64,000 bases of DNA from Deltaproteobacteria bacterium (GTDB lineage Bacteria > Myxococcota_C > UBA6777). Of the stretch, positions 1,948-63,620 are shown one piece after another; positions within the stretch are counted from its first letter, which is position 1; every line of letters starts with the position of its first letter. The stretch lies in the NCBI GenBank assembly GCA_002731275.1, contig PCBK01000030.1, positions 160,609-224,608 of the forward strand. The letters run 5' to 3'. Under the pieces are notes generated by a model that saw only the letters and a list, made by a program, of their open reading frames with translations, did not search any database and was not told where the DNA came from. The translations under genes and the position numbers were made by a program.

Positions 1948-3090
1948 TTATGGGGTTTTTCCTTTGATTTTGTCAAGGAGTTGTTTGGCGAAGGTGTCTT
2001 TTGCGTGGAGGGGTTTCACTTGTTTCAAAAAGAGACGCGCTTCTTTGAGGTGATTGGTTTGTACAGAGAGCCAACCCATCACCCGTGCGTAAGGATAATT
2101 TTTGAAGCGTCTTTGCAAGGAATCAACGGCTCGGAAGCGTGCATTTTCAGACGTGGCAAACAGAACACGAGCTTCGAGAAAGTCTCTGTACACAGGCCCA
2201 GGTAAGGAAACGCTGAGTGGCAATTGCTCGCGAATGATGTGCATCCAGCGCGCGAGAAAAAATGTGCGCAACCAAAGCGTTTGCTTAGGGGTAAGTGCAG
2301 TTTGCCCTTTCTTGACACTGATGCGCCTGAATAGTTCGGGATACTTTCCAGCGATGTTGGTCATAATGATCGCAGTTCGCGCAAGGGGATGACCTTTTTG
2401 TGGGATGGAGAGGAGGTCTCCTTTGCGCTTGAGGTAGTTGTGCATGACTCGCTCAAATTGTCCGAGGAGTTTATACCCCAACATTCGGAACTTGAGAATC
2501 CTATGGATGCGATAGTAACGAAGTGATTGATTGCGTAAAGCCTTACCAAGCTTGGGCTTGATGATACCGTAGGCTTCGGCATGACGGCTGGCAAAGAGGG
2601 CATCAACGAAAGCTTTTTCAGCAGGTGTTATCTTGAACTTGCGCGCCTTTGTGAAGAGCGTTTCGTAAAAGCTCTCACGTTTTTTTAGCGCAAAGACAAA
2701 TGGTAGTGGGTATCGGTATTTGGTTGCATCGAACGCTTTCTTTTTACGTGGTTTTGGTTTTTTTTGTGTCGTTTTGGGTGGAGGGACATCACGCTTTCCG
2801 TCGATGGGGACCATCTTGATGATACGAACATCGGAGGGTTTGTCATTGGCCTTTCCGAAGGCCGTTTTGTGTACAAGAGTTTTCCGTGCGCTGGTGTTTT
2901 GCTGTTTGGTTTTTTTTGCGGTGGGGACATGCGCTGGCGCTTTTCGCGCGGTGACTTTGTGTGCTTGTGGTTTGTTTGTATGTTTACGTGCTGCTCGATT
3001 GTTGGGCAGGAAGACACCAACCACAAGAGCGAGTGGGAAAAGAAGCAGTACAAGAACCCAACGAGAATCGTTGTTTTGGGATGCAGCCAT
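1948..3090 (-). CDS. membrane-anchored protein of unknown function
   Basis: This 380-residue protein is not recognised. It starts with a short polar segment and one hydrophobic helix (about residues 11-28, WVLVLLLFPLALVVGVF), consistent with an uncleaved N-terminal anchor. Residues 30-125 are a low-complexity Lys/Thr/Pro/Ala linker. The rest is basic and mostly helical, ending with a TPR-like stretch (VMGWLSVQTNHLKEARLFLKQV), which suggests protein-protein contacts outside the inner membrane. It lies downstream of rplQ on the same strand but 177 nt away behind a possible terminator, so it is probably a separate unit. The ATG is placed directly before the anchor. The coding call is secure; no function is assigned. 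Confidence 0.75.
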   Translation of the reverse strand: MAASQNNDSRWVLVLLLFPLALVVGVFLPNNRAARKHTNKPQAHKVTARKAPAHVPTAKKTKQQNTSARKTLVHKTAFGKANDKPSDVRIIKMVPIDGKRDVPPPKTTQKKPKPRKKKAFDATKYRYPLPFVFALKKRESFYETLFTKARKFKITPAEKAFVDALFASRHAEAYGIIKPKLGKALRNQSLRYYRIHRILKFRMLGYKLLGQFERVMHNYLKRKGDLLSIPQKGHPLARTAIIMTNIAGKYPELFRRISVKKGQTALTPKQTLWLRTFFLARWMHIIREQLPLSVSLPGPVYRDFLEARVLFATSENARFRAVDSLQRRFKNYPYARVMGWLSVQTNHLKEARLFLKQVKPLHAKDTFAKQLLDKIKGKTP

Positions 3091-3153
3091 GATGAAACTC
3101 CGTCACATTCCTCCATAGGAGGACAGGGTGAAAGGGGAGAATATATAAAAAAA

Positions 3154-3183
3154 GCGGGTACAGCGCAACAATAGACGATTGTT
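3154..3183 (-). terminator. possible terminator after rplQ
   Basis: On the minus strand the stem AACAAT (3067 offset: 3167-3172) pairs with ATTGTT (3178-3183) around a 5-nt loop, followed about 15 nt later by a run of seven Ts (around 3147-3153). It is 85 nt beyond the rplQ stop. The stem is short and the U-run is not adjacent, so this is only a weak candidate for the end of the ribosomal operon. Confidence 0.35.
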
Positions 3184-3267
3184 TAGCGTATATGGAGGAT
3201 GATTATGGCGTAATGTGGATGATTGATCAAGAGAGGGGTGGAGTGAGGTGATATGTTGGAGGGTTGA

Positions 3268-3705
3268 TTACTCGGCTTCTTCGTAATCTTCATCATCGAG
3301 TCTTTCGACAAATTCGATGATAGAAATGGGTGCGTTATCGCCTTGTCTGTAACCGAGTTTGAGGATACGGGTGTATCCACCTTGGCGTTCGCTGAAGAGC
3401 TCAGCGTACTCAAAGACTTTGCGAGCGAGATCTTTGTCTTTGATGTCTTTGAGGATCTGACGGAAGACATGGAGTCTTTTTTGTGTGTACGCAGCGTCAT
3501 CGAGCTCGCGATTGAGTTCGGCGTCGCGGAGTCCACGTTTTCCGACAGTGATCAGACGCTCAGCGATCTTGCGCAATTCTTTTGCGCGTGTTTCAGTGGT
3601 GCGGATACGGCCATGCTCGATAAGAGAGGAGACCATATTGCGCATCATTGCTTTTCGGTGGGGGCCGTTTCGCCCGAGTCGTCTACCAGATTTACGGTGT
3701 CTCAT
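3268..3705 (-). CDS. rplQ: 50S ribosomal protein L17
   Basis: L17 sits near the exit-tunnel side of the 50S subunit. The 145-residue product opens with the family signature MRHRKSGRRLGRNGPHRKAM and continues with the conserved block around SLIEHGRIRTTETRAKELR. It is longer than the usual 120-130 residues because of an acidic C-terminal tail (FVERLDDEDYEEAE). The gene is the last member of the ribosomal cluster, 76 nt downstream of rpoA, the normal alpha-operon order. The call is firm. Confidence 0.97.
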   Translation of the reverse strand: MRHRKSGRRLGRNGPHRKAMMRNMVSSLIEHGRIRTTETRAKELRKIAERLITVGKRGLRDAELNRELDDAAYTQKRLHVFRQILKDIKDKDLARKVFEYAELFSERQGGYTRILKLGYRQGDNAPISIIEFVERLDDEDYEEAE

Positions 3706-3781
3706 GATTCTATTCCTTCAACACAAACAAAAGTGGTTGTCACGTAAGTAGATATACGCTTCAAGTATGCCTTTGTGAGGT

Positions 3782-4786
3782 TTACTTTCCGCGATCTTTT
3801 AAATCTTTTGGGGGCCAGCTATCGATCTTCATACCAAGCGCGAGTCCCATTTCTCCGAGAACATTTTGGATCTCTTTGAGGGATTTGCGTCCAAAGTTTT
3901 TGGTGTTGAGCATTTCCTGCTCAGTTCTTTGGACAAGCTCACCGATATATCGGATGTTGGCCATCGCAAGACAATTGGAAGCACGAACAGAGAGCTCAAG
4001 TTCGTCGACTGTTTTGAGGAGGTTTTCGTTGAGCTTTTGCTCTTCCTCATTGTACTCTTCTTGTTCTGGTTCATCGACCTCTTCGAAGTTGAGGAAGATG
4101 ATGAGTTGTTCGCGCAAGATTTTTGCGGCGAATGCGACAGCATCATCGGGACGGACAGAGCCGTCGGTAAAGACTTCGAGAGTGAGTTTGTCGTAGTCAG
4201 TGACCTGTCCAACCCGTGCGTTTGTGACGAGATAGTTCACTTTGCGAACGGGAGCGAAGAGCGCGTCGACAGGGATTGAGCCAGTGGGGAGTGCACCGAA
4301 GGCCTTACGATCAGCAGGTACATATCCACGTCCACTGTGAGCGGTCAATTCGACTTGGAGTCGGCCTTTTTCCATCAAAGTCGCGATGTGCTGGTCGGGA
4401 TTGAGCACGGTGACAGATGGAGGTGTTTGGATGTCACGGGCTTTGACTTCACCGGGGCCTTCGACATCAATATAAAGAGTGCGAGCTCCGGGTTTGTAAT
4501 CATCGAATTTGAGCACGACCTCTTTGAGGTTGAGGATGACATCGGTGACATCTTCGACAACATCGGTGAGCGTGGTAAATTCGTGCAGTGCACCTTCGAT
4601 CTTGGCAGCGGTGATACCGGCACCCTGGATCGATGAGAGCAGAACACGTCGCAGGGAGTTGCCGAGAGTGACACCGAAGCCTCGTTCGAGTGGCTCTGCG
4701 ACAAACTTTCCGTAGCTATCCGTGAGAGTTTCCTGATCGACCTGGAGACTTTTGGGGCTGATCAGTTCGCGCCAGAAACTGTACAT
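3782..4786 (-). CDS. rpoA: RNA polymerase alpha subunit
   Basis: The alpha subunit nucleates RNA polymerase assembly and contacts promoter UP elements and activators. The 334 residues comprise the dimerisation domain (about 15-230, with [17 protein letters not shown]), an acidic Glu-rich linker around 230-255, and the C-terminal domain (about 264-325), where [19 protein letters not shown] and [10 protein letters not shown] keep the DNA-contacting Arg, Asn and Lys. The ATG at 4786 has a good ribosome site, GGGAGTAGG, about 5 nt upstream. rpsD, which normally sits between rpsK and rpoA, is missing; the 148-nt gap instead carries a large hairpin. Confidence 0.98.
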
Positions 4787-4934: not shown

Positions 4935-5327
4935 TCACACGCGTCGTCGTTTGGGGGGACGACAACCGTTGTGGGGAATAGGAGTCACGTCACGGATCAA
5001 GGAGATCTTGAGACCGGAAGAGGCGAGGGAGCGAAGCGCAGCTTCACGTCCGGAGCCTGGTCCTTTGACGAGAACGGACACAGTTTTGAGGCCGTGTTCC
5101 ATGGCTTTTCTTGCCGCTTCCTCAGCAGCTTGTTGTGCTGCGTAGGGAGTGCTTTTACGGGATCCTTTGAATCCACGAGCACCGGCAGAAGACCATGACA
5201 AGACGTTCCCGTTGGGGTCTGTTATGGTGACCAATGTATTGTTAAAGGTGGACTGGATGTGGGCCACCCCTACAGGGATATTCTTTTTGACTTTCTTTTT
5301 GCTTTTACCACGCTTGGGTCTGGCCAT
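4935..5327 (-). CDS. rpsK: 30S ribosomal protein S11
   Basis: S11 lies on the 30S platform close to the E-site mRNA. The 130-residue protein has the basic N-terminus [16 protein letters not shown], then [18 protein letters not shown] and the C-terminal signature [18 protein letters not shown]. Length and motifs match the family. It follows rpsM by 33 nt in the alpha-operon order and precedes rpoA with rpsD missing between them. Confidence 0.97.
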
Positions 5328-58832: not shown

Positions 58833-60437
58833 ATGAAGAGAGAAGAACAACAACGCTGCAGGGCCGCGATCCCGGAGAAGCTCCAGGAAGCAGGTGGCTT
58901 ACGAGATGGTGCTGCGCGCCGGGTTGCCGAAGAATTAGGTATCCCAGAAGCCCATGTTTACGGAGTCGGAAGCTTCTTCCACCTGCTCTCGGCACCTGAC
59001 GTGAAGCTACGTGTTTGTCAGGGACTCTCCTGCCGACTTGAGGGCGCAGAAGAGGTCCTTCAACAAGCCAAAGACGCTGGGCTCGCAGCCGAAGGTTGCT
59101 CTTGCCTCGCGATGTGTGACCACCCTGTCCCTGCCCTCGAAGATCGCAACGTCCTCGCGACACTTACGACACAATCTCTCGAAGGTCTCCAAGGCGACAG
59201 TCTCTACAAACACGCCGTCACACACCAACAATGGCAAACCAATATCGGCCCACAAGGACAAGACCCTTCCACACTCGTCAACCGTCTGCACATGCCCCAC
59301 AATTACGACGGAGCCTCCTATCAAAAAGCCGTTGAACTCGGCTCCAAAGAGGTCATCGACATCATCTCCGCCTCAGGTCTTCAAGGACGTGGTGGCGCAG
59401 GCTTCTCAGCCGGATTCAAGTGGAAATCAGTCGCCGCCCAAACAACCCCCACCAAGTACGTCGTACTCAACGCCGATGAAGGTGAGCCAGGGACATTCAA
59501 GGATCGCGAAGTCCTGATGAGGCGCCCTGATACAGTCGTCGAAGGACTCGCGATCGCGGCGACAATGGTCGGCGCAACAGACATTTACTGCTACTTACGA
59601 GGTGCCTTCACCAAGCCCTGGGACGCGTTACAACAAGCCATCGACACCTTTCAAGAGAGAGGTTTGTTTCCGTCGTTGAACTTCCACCTCCACGCAGGAC
59701 AAGGGGCTTACATCTGTGGTGAAGAGACCGCGCTCCTCGAAGCGCTCGAAGGCAAACGTGGTATGCCCCGCAACAAACCGCCCTACCCCACAGTCGAAGG
59801 GCTCTGGGGCAAACCCACGCTCGTCCACAACGTCGAGACCATCGCTTGTGTCCCCGCGATCCTGGAGCGTGGCGCGGAGTGGTTTCGCGACCTCGGACGC
59901 ACTGGCCCCGGCACTAAGTTATACTGCATCAGTGGACACGTCGAAAAACCCGGTGTATATGAGCTTCCCCTTGGGGTCCATCTCGATGAATTGGTCGAAG
60001 CAGCCGGTGGATATATTGGAACGTTAAAAGCCTTCTCACCAGGTGGCGCAAGTTCGGGCTTTTTGCCTGCCTCCGAACGCAAGAGACCGCTCGACTTCAA
60101 GTCCCTGACGGAGGTCGGTTCGATGTTGGGCTCGGCGGGCGTCGTCGTGCTCAATGAGACGGTCGATATGGTGTGGGCTGCCCAACAGCAGCTCATCTTT
60201 TTTGAAGACGAGAGCTGCGGTCAATGTGCGCCGTGTCGGATCGGGACGCGCTTCCTGCGCGAGACGATGGAACGCTTTGTCGCCGCAGACAATACAGATG
60301 CAGCCCGTGAGATCCTCTCCTTTGTCGACGAGGTCGCCTGGGAGATGAACGAAGGTTCGATTTGTGGTCTGGGGATGGTCGCTCCCCTACCTTTGACAAG
60401 CGCGATGCGCTGGTTTCCTGAGGAGTTTACAACATGA
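58833..60437 (+). CDS. NAD-dependent formate dehydrogenase beta subunit, NuoE-NuoF fusion
   Basis: The 534-residue protein accepts electrons from the alpha subunit and reduces NAD(P)+. Residues 1-105 are NuoE-like, with the [2Fe-2S] ligands Cys62, Cys67, Cys91 and Cys95 in the Cx4C and Cx3C pattern. The rest is NuoF-like: GRGGAGFSAGFKWKS for NADH/FMN binding, LNADEGEPGTFKDRE, GAYICGEETALLEALEGKRG, and the [4Fe-4S] site ESCGQCAPCRIG with a final Cys in GSICGLG. No separate gamma subunit gene follows, so the fusion replaces it. The ATG at 58833 is preferred over a TTG 14 codons earlier. Its stop overlaps the fdhA start (ATGA). Confidence 0.93.
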   Translation: MKREEQQRCRAAIPEKLQEAGGLRDGAARRVAEELGIPEAHVYGVGSFFHLLSAPDVKLRVCQGLSCRLEGAEEVLQQAKDAGLAAEGCSCLAMCDHPVPALEDRNVLATLTTQSLEGLQGDSLYKHAVTHQQWQTNIGPQGQDPSTLVNRLHMPHNYDGASYQKAVELGSKEVIDIISASGLQGRGGAGFSAGFKWKSVAAQTTPTKYVVLNADEGEPGTFKDREVLMRRPDTVVEGLAIAATMVGATDIYCYLRGAFTKPWDALQQAIDTFQERGLFPSLNFHLHAGQGAYICGEETALLEALEGKRGMPRNKPPYPTVEGLWGKPTLVHNVETIACVPAILERGAEWFRDLGRTGPGTKLYCISGHVEKPGVYELPLGVHLDELVEAAGGYIGTLKAFSPGGASSGFLPASERKRPLDFKSLTEVGSMLGSAGVVVLNETVDMVWAAQQQLIFFEDESCGQCAPCRIGTRFLRETMERFVAADNTDAAREILSFVDEVAWEMNEGSICGLGMVAPLPLTSAMRWFPEEFTT

Positions 60438-63208
60438 GCAAACCAAAGCACGTCACCCTCAACGGCCAGGAGGTCCCCTTCGAAGAAGGAGAGACCATCC
60501 TGACCCTCGCCAAACGCCACGGAGAGGAGATCCCAACGTTGTGTTACGAGCCGAGACTCTCCGTCGTCGGTTCATGCAGAACATGTCTCGTCGAGGTCAA
60601 AGGTCGCGGTCGCATGATGCCTTCTTGTTCAACACTCCTCGAAGAAGGCATGGACATCACAACGACCAATCCACGTATCGAACGCCACCAAAAAGCTCTC
60701 CTCGCGCTCTACATGACGGACCACCCCCAAGAACACGAATCTTGTGAGACAGGTGCCCCCTGTGAATTGCACCAAATGGCCGCAGATGTGAACGCACCAA
60801 GAGATTGGCCCCACATGGAACCGATCCGTCAAAGTCGCCCAGACGATCGAAACCGCTTTGTCGAATTCATCGCCGAAAAATGCATCCTCTGTTCACGTTG
60901 CACACGCTACTGCGACGAAGTCGAGGCTGTCAACGCGATCACGTTGACCGGTCGTGGTGCCAAAACGACGATCTCAACGACCGATCAAATATCTCTTCTT
61001 GATTCATCCTGTGAGCTGTGTGGAGGTTGTATCGATGTCTGTCCAACAGGCGCGATGACCGAAAAGAAGCCTCATGTTCAACAAGCTCCACCAGAGAGAG
61101 AACTCGAAAAGGTCCGCACCACCTGTAATTACTGTGGTGTCGGTTGCCAGATGGACCTCAACGTCTCCAATGGGACACAGCCCCGCCACGTCGCAAAAAT
61201 CACATCTCCTCCTCCAGGCACGACGACCAACGACGGCAATTTGTGTGTCAAAGGACGCTTTGCGTATGACTTTATCTCCCACCCCGATCGACTCAAAGTA
61301 CCTCTGGTTCGAGGAGAAGATGGACAGCTTCATGAGGCGACGTGGGAAGAAGCCCTGCAAAAAGCCGCTGATGGTCTGATGAAAGTTAAAGCCGAACATG
61401 GCGCTGATGCCCTCGGTTTTATCTCGTCTTCACGCTGTACGGGAGAAGAGAATTACCTCGTGCAGAAGCTCTCACGGGCGGTCTTTACGACCAACAACGT
61501 TCACCAATGCGCGGCGACTTGACACGCCCCGACTGTGGCCGGTCTGGTCACAACGTTTGGTGCAGGAGCGATGACAAACTCAATCGGAGAGATCCGCGAC
61601 GCTGATTTTCTCTTTGTCATCGGAAGTAATACCACTGAAGCCCACCCGATCATCGGGATGGAGATGAAACGAGCTGCCCTTCGTGGCGCCACACTCGTCG
61701 TGGCCGATCCACGTTCCATTTGGCTCACAACACTCGCAGATAGACATCTCAAGCTCAATCCGGGCACTGATGTCTGGCTGCTCAACGCGATGGCGCACGT
61801 CATCATTACAGAAGACCTCGTCGACCGAGACTTCATCGAGCAAAATACAGAAGGCTTTGAGGCTGTGCGTGACACGGTCCTCGAATACACACCTGAAAAA
61901 GCCGAAGAGATCACAGGTGTCCCCGCCGAAGCGATCCGCAAAACGGCCCGTGAGTACGCGACCACCCGCAAGGCAGGCATCTACTATACACTCGGTATCA
62001 CCGAACACTCTCACGGCACGGACAATGTCTACGCCCTCTCGAACCTCGTCTTGATGACCGGTCACCTCGGTGGGCCATCGATGGGTATGAACCCGCTACG
62101 TGGACAGAACAATGTACAGGGTGCCAACGACGCAGGCGCGTCACCGATCTTCTTCCCTGGTTACCAGAGAGTCACCGATCCAGGTGTCGTCGATAAGTAC
62201 GAACAATCCTGGGGTGTCCCCCTCTCTCGTGAACCTGGATACAATCTCAACGAGATGATGAAGCTCGCAGGTGACAAGCTCAAAGGTTTCTTTGTCATGG
62301 GCGAAGATATCGTGATGTCCGAGCCCAATGTCAGTCGTCTCGAAGAAGGACTCAACAAGGTCGACTTCTTGGTCTTGCAAGATATCTTCCTCAACGAGAC
62401 GGCCCGTTTTGCCGACGTCGTCTTCCCTGCGGCTTGCTTCGCCGAAAAAGATGGTGTCTTCACCAACTCGGAGCGGCGGGTGCAGCGTGTACGCAAAGCC
62501 GTAGATCCGCCAGGACAGGCCCGCGCTGATTGGGAAATCCTCGTCGACCTCGCGCGTCATTGTGGGGTTATGTGGGACTACACACATCCTTCGGAGATCT
62601 ACGCAGAGATGGTCAAAGATGCCTCGAAGTTCGCGGGCATCAGCTATGAACGCATGGACAAAGAAGGTGGTTTGCAGTGGCCTTGTGTCTCTCCAGACGA
62701 TCCAGGAACACAATTCCTCCACGAAGGCGGCGTCTTACGTGGAAAAGGTCTGTTCCAGGCCGTCCAGTATCGCCCCTCTGCAGAGCTTGCCGATGAACAT
62801 TATCCATTGATCATGTCGACAGGACGAACTCTTTATCACTACAACGCGGCGACACAAACCCGTCGCGTCGATGGGATCGTCGATAAGCAGCCAGAGTCGT
62901 ATCTGGAGCTTCATCCACGTGATGCCAAAAAACGTGGGATTCAGGACGGTGGCATGGTCGAAGTCCGCTCACGAAGAGGAAGCGTGACTTGTCGCGCTGT
63001 GTACTCAAAACAGGTGAAGAAAGGTTGTGTCTGGATGCCCTTCCACTTTGCCGAAGCCCGTGCAAACCTGCTCACAAACGACATCGGAGACAATGTCACA
63101 GGGACCGCTGAGTACAAAGTCTGTGCTGTTGAAGTCGTACCCCTCAAGCAGGCCCCCAAACATAGCTTCCCTGGCGCATTTTTTCTCAAACCATCAAACC
63201 ACACCTGA
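60434..63208 (+). CDS. fdhA: formate dehydrogenase alpha subunit, selenocysteine-containing (UGA read-through)
   Basis: The gene is one 924-residue frame interrupted by a single TGA at 61520-61522, read as Sec363 in the context QCAAT-Sec-HAPTVAGL, the active-site position that is Sec or Cys in FDHs. Domains: NuoG-like [2Fe-2S] (Cys37, Cys48, Cys51, Cys65), a NuoG N5-like site with His97, His101, Cys104 and Cys110, two [4Fe-4S] ferredoxin clusters (Cys150/153/156/160 and Cys193/196/199/203), the Fe4S4 of the molybdopterin family (Cys231/234/238/271), and the bis-MGD domains to the end. It should oxidise formate to CO2 in the cytoplasm, with no signal or anchor. Coupled to the NuoEF fusion upstream. 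Confidence 0.95.
61520..61560 (+). promoter_or_regulatory. SECIS element directing selenocysteine at UGA 61520-61522
   Basis: Eleven nt after the UGA, TGTGGCC (61534-61540) pairs with GGTCACA (61546-61552), with one G-U pair, around the loop GGTCT. Spacing, stem and the GGU-containing loop match bacterial SECIS hairpins recognised by SelB; the fdhF element of E. coli also has a GGUCU loop. Extra lower pairs (around 61528-61533 with 61555-61560) can extend the stem. Confidence 0.88.
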
Positions 63209-63224
63209 CAGATATTGCCCCAGG

Positions 63225-63312
63225 CTGCCTGTGGACAGGCACATGGCTGCCGATGGACGGGCACATGACTGCCGATGGACGGGCACATGACTGCCGATGG
63301 ACGGGCACATGA
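63225..63312. repeat. 22-nt tandem repeat array
   Basis: Three identical copies of CTGCCGATGGACGGGCACATGA (unit split here over positions 63247-63268, 63269-63290 and 63291-63312) follow one diverged copy at 63225-63246, with a partial copy to about 63328. No coding frame is supported through them. They start 17 nt after the fdhA stop. Confidence 0.9.
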
Positions 63313-63324
63313 CTGCCGGCGTAC

Positions 63325-63344
63325 GGGCGAGTGGCAACTCGCCC
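63325..63344. repeat. perfect 8-bp hairpin next to the repeat array
   Basis: GGGCGAGT (63325-63332) pairs with ACTCGCCC (63337-63344) around GGCA. It lies at the junction between the 22-nt and 41-nt repeats. No U-run follows, so it is not a clear terminator for fdhA. Confidence 0.6.
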
Positions 63345-63348
63345 CTTG

Positions 63349-63471
63349 CCCCTTGCTGCCGCACTTCGCTTGCCATTTCTAACGGGGAGCCCCTTGCTGC
63401 CGCGCTTCGCTTGCCATTTCTAACGGGGAACTCCTTGCTGCCGCGCTTCGCTTGCCCTTTCTACCGGGGAC
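63349..63471. repeat. 41-nt tandem repeat with TGCCGCGCTTCGCTTGCC core
   Basis: Three copies start at 63349, 63390 and 63431, each containing CTTGCTGCCGC, CTTCGCTTGCC and a TAACGGGG-like end. Two further copies of the core TGCCGCGCTTCGCTTGCC occur near 63540 and 63596. The stretch is G+C-richer than its surroundings. It looks like a dispersed, non-coding repeat family. Confidence 0.85.
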
Positions 63472-63620
63472 CGGAGGCGGTCCCCAAGCGCGGCCTATCG
63501 GCCTTGCTTCCCCCTCCTGTTGACGCCTTCGGCGTGAGCTGCCGCGCTTCGCTTGCCTCGCATGAACGGTTGAGTGGCCACTCTCGCTCAAGGCTGCCGC
63601 GCTTCGCTTGCCTCGCAACA

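Follow-up and report, generated by a model that had tools for sequence, protein, structure and literature searches.

FdhA is the most widely distributed bacterial selenoprotein (PMC13188914). It occurs in 67 of 75 bacteria that use selenocysteine (Sec), and Sec-to-Cys changes that leave remnant SECIS structures behind have been reported (PMC1794560). Three described enzymes bear most closely on the formate dehydrogenase (FDH) locus analyzed here. FDH-H of E. coli (FdhA/FdhF; 1aa6/1fdo) shares with it the Mo/W-bisPGD center, the U-H-x-P motif, the UGA, and an immediately downstream SECIS with a GGUCU loop. FDH-H is, however, a short catalytic subunit that matches only residues 225-905 of the FdhA described here, which adds a NuoG-like N-terminal Fe-S region (∼220 residues) and an FMN partner. 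MeFDH1 (FDH1 of Methylobacterium/Methylorubrum extorquens; 7vw6, 7e5z) has the same alpha-beta layout, with a NuoG-like N-terminus on the alpha subunit and a fused FdsG-FdsB-type beta subunit; the resemblance of its beta subunit to an FdsB-FdsG fusion, as well as the lack of the A5 cluster, has been described (PMC10869683). MeFDH1 has a W center and contains Cys where our FdhA has Sec, and although the A5 site is not intact in either protein, ours retains two of the three Cys residues and the His of the motif. In the NAD-linked FdsABG of Rhodobacter capsulatus (6tg9, 6tga), the alpha subunit is one of the two solved relatives closest to our FdhA, with a score of 771 bits across residues 3-902, but that enzyme differs in having an active-site Cys, separate FdsB and FdsG subunits, and an intact A5 motif (DHPLDCLTCAANGDC).

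The window, a 64,000-nucleotide stretch of DNA, lies on contig C35 of a draft assembly (200 contigs, 10.75 Mb, 94.65% complete, 5.5% estimated contamination), and its relevant features are collected in Table 1. When TGA is translated as U, fdhA yields 924 residues followed by a TGA stop (63206-63208), and the sole internal stop is U363, in the context HQCAAT-U-HAPTVAGLV. The first-pass annotation had described fdhA as a selenoprotein gene split by an in-frame UGA, and on retranslation its coordinates, frame, residue number, and active-site context were all exact. The UGA is in frame as described, but nothing in the layout is unusual, this being the standard arrangement of a Sec-type fdhA. Without recoding, the open reading frame list breaks fdhA into 60434-61522 (362 aa) and 61535-63208 (557 aa), just as that annotation had anticipated in stating that an automated caller would report two genes or a pseudogene. 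Directly after fdhA, two short tandem arrays (a 22-bp unit repeated 4.3 times and a 41-bp unit repeated 3 times) occupy positions 63225-63612; the sequence TGCTGCCGCGCTTCGCTTGCC, allowing up to 2 mismatches, has five copies there and none elsewhere in the window, where none would be expected by chance.

Table 1. Features of the fdhBA locus (window positions), with the evidence for each assignment
Feature	Position	Strand	Evidence
fdhB, predicted diaphorase subunit: N-terminal NuoE/FdsG-like [2Fe-2S] part and NuoF/FdsB-like FMN and 4Fe-4S part	58833..60437	+	PF01257, PF01512, SLBB, PF10589
fdhA, predicted Sec-containing formate dehydrogenase alpha subunit, 924 aa with UGA read through	60434..63208	+	TIGR01591 and domain matches
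Putative bacterial SECIS element, Rfam RF01989 SECIS_3 match	61517..61575	+	36.8 bits, E 7e-6, under the gathering score of 63
UGA codon of predicted Sec363, next to catalytic-motif His364	61520..61522	+	in frame; aligned to FdsA Cys; conserved UGA
Apical SECIS hairpin, GUGGCC-GGUCU-GGUCAC	61535..61551	+	pairing, compensatory changes, nearly frozen codons

One way to read the two pieces is as separate products, an Fe-S protein of 362 residues and a molybdopterin protein of 557 residues, with the UGA serving as a regulated stop that permits read-through only in the presence of selenium. Sec recoding in E. coli does compete with termination, with 30-40% recoding in vivo (PMC4513850), so that a truncated by-product is to be expected. 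Partial termination is nevertheless normal for selenoprotein genes and hence calls for no separate mechanism. Moreover, neither half alone would contain a complete active site, and the GTG that comes first in the second half (61535) falls inside the hairpin and makes no obvious start. We consider two separate proteins to be highly improbable.

The single read-through protein, in turn, has the makings of a complete FDH. It matches the TIGR01591 Fdh-alpha model from end to end (profile positions 1-672 of 672) with 799 bits against a cutoff of 666, and it contains the Fer2_4, Fer4, Molybdop_Fe4S4, Molybdopterin, and Molydop_binding domains. Among solved structures, it is matched best by FdsA-type subunits (9wxb, 6tg9) and MeFDH1 (7e5z, 7vw6), and in 9wxb, 6tg9, 6tga, 7e5z, and 7vw6, residue 363 aligns with the Cys of a C-H-x-P or C-H-A motif. 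The alignment to Sec- and Cys-containing FDHs that had been proposed as a check thus places Sec363 on the active-site Cys of FdsA. The active site reads U363-H364-A-P, with the conserved Arg in NPLRGQNNVQG at 553 (pattern NPxRGQNNVQG), and NPLRGQNNVQGA is conserved together with Arg556 in the alignment to FdsA structures. The frame, the TIGR01591 match, and the Sec machinery described below all support the earlier claim that read-through gives an intact 924-residue FDH with Sec363. The segment that corresponds to the A5 [4Fe-4S] motif (window 60719-60763, FdhA residues 96-110) reads DHPQEHESCETGAPC, in which the first Cys of the FdsA His-Cys3 motif (DHPLDCLTCxxxGxC) is replaced by His. Judged from its ligand residues, the A5 site of this FdhA is degenerate; in most of the Planctomycetota and Verrucomicrobiota relatives, nearly all A5 ligands are gone.

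The gene immediately upstream encodes the likely partner. The fdhB start is uncertain, since the open reading frame list begins at a TTG (58791) while the ATG at 58833 is likelier; its TGA stop (60435-60437) lies in a 4-base overlap with fdhA (ATGA). The order fdhB (2383-4002) then fdhA recurs in relative L021. The NuoE/FdsG and NuoF/FdsB parts lie in one chain, and because such a subunit is encoded directly upstream of fdhA, we most likely have here an NAD+-linked alpha-beta FDH of the cytosol, similar to MeFDH1 with Sec in place of Cys. The presence of this diaphorase subunit is also the reason for which we infer NAD+ to be the acceptor.

The genome is equipped to insert Sec. A tRNA-Sec (71.5 bits; called by ARAGORN as tRNA-SeC, anticodon tca), SelB (380 bits, with the C-terminal winged-helix domains), SelA (550 bits), and SelD (365 bits) are all present, so that each of the four genes that the first-pass annotation had listed for a search was found, and the absence of tRNA-Sec or SelB that it named as a refutation was not seen. 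Only selB shares the window's contig, ∼67 kb before the window; selA, selC, and selD are on others. FdhD is an FDH accessory protein that acts in sulfur transfer, and it too is encoded in the assembly (156 bits). The selD gene (L018 1501-2427; contig C43) is itself a selenoprotein gene, with one in-frame TGA at the usual Sec site (TCAG-U-AAKLGPGDLE); UxxK is listed as the Sec motif of SelD (PMC13188914). Because this machinery is complete, the interruption of the fdhA frame can be taken as real biology rather than as a broken gene.

A scan of genome contigs returned 21 relatives, 19 of which cover the UGA site (L039 and L040 do not); L059-L061, which are NuoG-like or other family members lacking Cys or Sec at the site, were excluded from the counts. 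At 55-76% identity, 17 of the 18 site-covering relatives carry the UGA (L021-L032, L034-L037, and L041), the exception being L033 with Cys (TGC). L038, at 50% identity, also has Cys, and among farther homologues (38-50% identity) both residues occur, with UGA at L045, L049, L050, L052, and L057. The in-frame UGA is therefore conserved where homologues have Sec or Cys. The relatives come from separate assemblies, all metagenome-assembled genomes (MAGs), titled Planctomycetota, Verrucomicrobia, Akkermansiaceae, Kofleriaceae, Myxococcales, and Deltaproteobacteria. In the tree, L021 and L022 group with the window FdhA, all within a 19-member clade that has good support (18 Sec and one Cys, L033). 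Phyla are interleaved within this clade, which suggests horizontal transfer of fdhA among them, a pattern to which MAG binning errors could contribute. L033 keeps a SECIS-like hairpin (5081-5139) with a weak SECIS_3 match (30.5 bits) behind its TGC, and its genome still has tRNA-Sec and SelB; for these reasons, it is apparently one Sec-to-Cys change.

The arms of the hairpin behind the UGA lie at 61535-61540 and 61546-61551, and its GGUCU loop lies at 61541-61545. The first-pass annotation had noted this structure, and it is present as described, directly after the UGA, but the argument was weak as first stated because the folding energy by itself does not stand out from that of shuffles (z −0.3 to +0.5) and is ordinary for the composition. 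The case for a SECIS is carried by comparison instead. SECIS_3 matches occur at the same place in L022, L026, L027, and L037 (35-43 bits, also under the gathering score). Synonymous codons are nearly frozen across 16 UGA homologues, with A369 encoded by GCC in 16/16, G370 by GGT in 15/16, and L371 by CTG in 16/16; of the 185 columns tested (an invariant residue with at least 4 synonymous codons), these are the only ones with a codon entropy below 0.4 bits. Residues 368-372 have a codon entropy of 0.51 bits, whereas the gene averages 1.61, and five columns drawn at random never gave so low a value in 200,000 draws. The codons of V368 and V372 change together (GTG with GTC, GTC with GTG), a G-C to C-G swap that leaves the protein unaltered. 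Across 21 UGA homologues, 98.4% of stem cells are paired, and two of the pairs show compensatory changes. Covariation scores 0.326, compared with 0.155 when shuffled (0/500 as high, a count that is no probability, as the 21 sequences are related), and controls in which the stem was slid gave at most 0.108, a comparison biased in favor of the stem, which was derived from one of the 21. Pairing is mostly absent in Cys homologues. Taken together, the Rfam match, nearly frozen codons, covariation, and scarcity of pairing in Cys homologues support assignment of the hairpin as a SECIS.

These data also bear on whether the UGA is a nonsense mutation or sequencing error that turned a Cys codon (TGC/TGT) into TGA, making fdhA a pseudogene or an assembly artifact. 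Homologues with Cys at this site do exist (L033, L038, and others), one base away from TGA. Against this, the same UGA is found in the 17 named relatives from independent assemblies as well as in the five distant homologues, which in practice excludes a recent nonsense mutation and the sequencing error that had been named as a possible refutation; both halves of fdhA keep their full length and their conservation, synonymous change in the hairpin is constrained, and the Sec machinery of the genome is complete. Conservation of the UGA and hairpin together refutes a pseudogene or sequencing error for practical purposes, and such an origin is barely credible. A variant code in which UGA encodes another residue such as Trp genome-wide, with no need for a SECIS, could draw on the second in-frame TGA, in selD, but that codon is at the known SelD Sec site, a SECIS and tRNA-Sec account for both, and the UGA terminators of fdhA and fdhB refute such a change, leaving it a negligible chance.

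The window fdhA is almost certainly a functional Sec-type gene, with Sec delivered at the UGA via SelB and the hairpin and the product paired with FdhB. We infer that the residue inserted at position 363 is Sec. In this mechanism, SelB-GTP-Sec-tRNA-Sec would bind the hairpin just behind the UGA and deliver selenocysteine there instead of termination taking place. FdhA would then carry bis-MGD with Mo or W, to which Sec363 is a presumed ligand, together with a series of Fe-S clusters in its N-terminal part, and would pair with the FMN-containing FdhB. The complex would most likely oxidize formate to CO2 with NAD+, or it may catalyze the reverse reaction.

In two Planctomycetota relatives, L034 and L035, the UGA is retained without a GGUCU loop behind it. 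Their only strong hairpin, AAGCUCU-CGUGA-AGAGCUU, has a different loop and lies ∼5 bases farther downstream; a search of L034 for a SECIS_3 match found none, and tRNA-Sec and SelB are present in both genomes. A speculative and rather unlikely reading would be that A5 is being lost in the Sec-FDH clade, with the window's phylum keeping an intermediate His-His-Cys-Cys set that could bind a cluster through unusual ligands, and that the L034/L035 sub-branch decodes its UGA by means of a SECIS of different construction.

These results indicate that the correct annotation of fdhA is a single intact selenoprotein. They also contribute a set of Sec-FDH sequences, with good support, from Planctomycetota, Verrucomicrobiota, and Myxococcota-like bacteria. 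What is known of selenocysteine and of formate dehydrogenases is unchanged by the window fdhA, which is an ordinary addition to the best-known bacterial selenoprotein family. It comes from a little-sampled phylum, of which the search covered only five genomes, three of them with this enzyme, and the lineage is one that uses selenocysteine.
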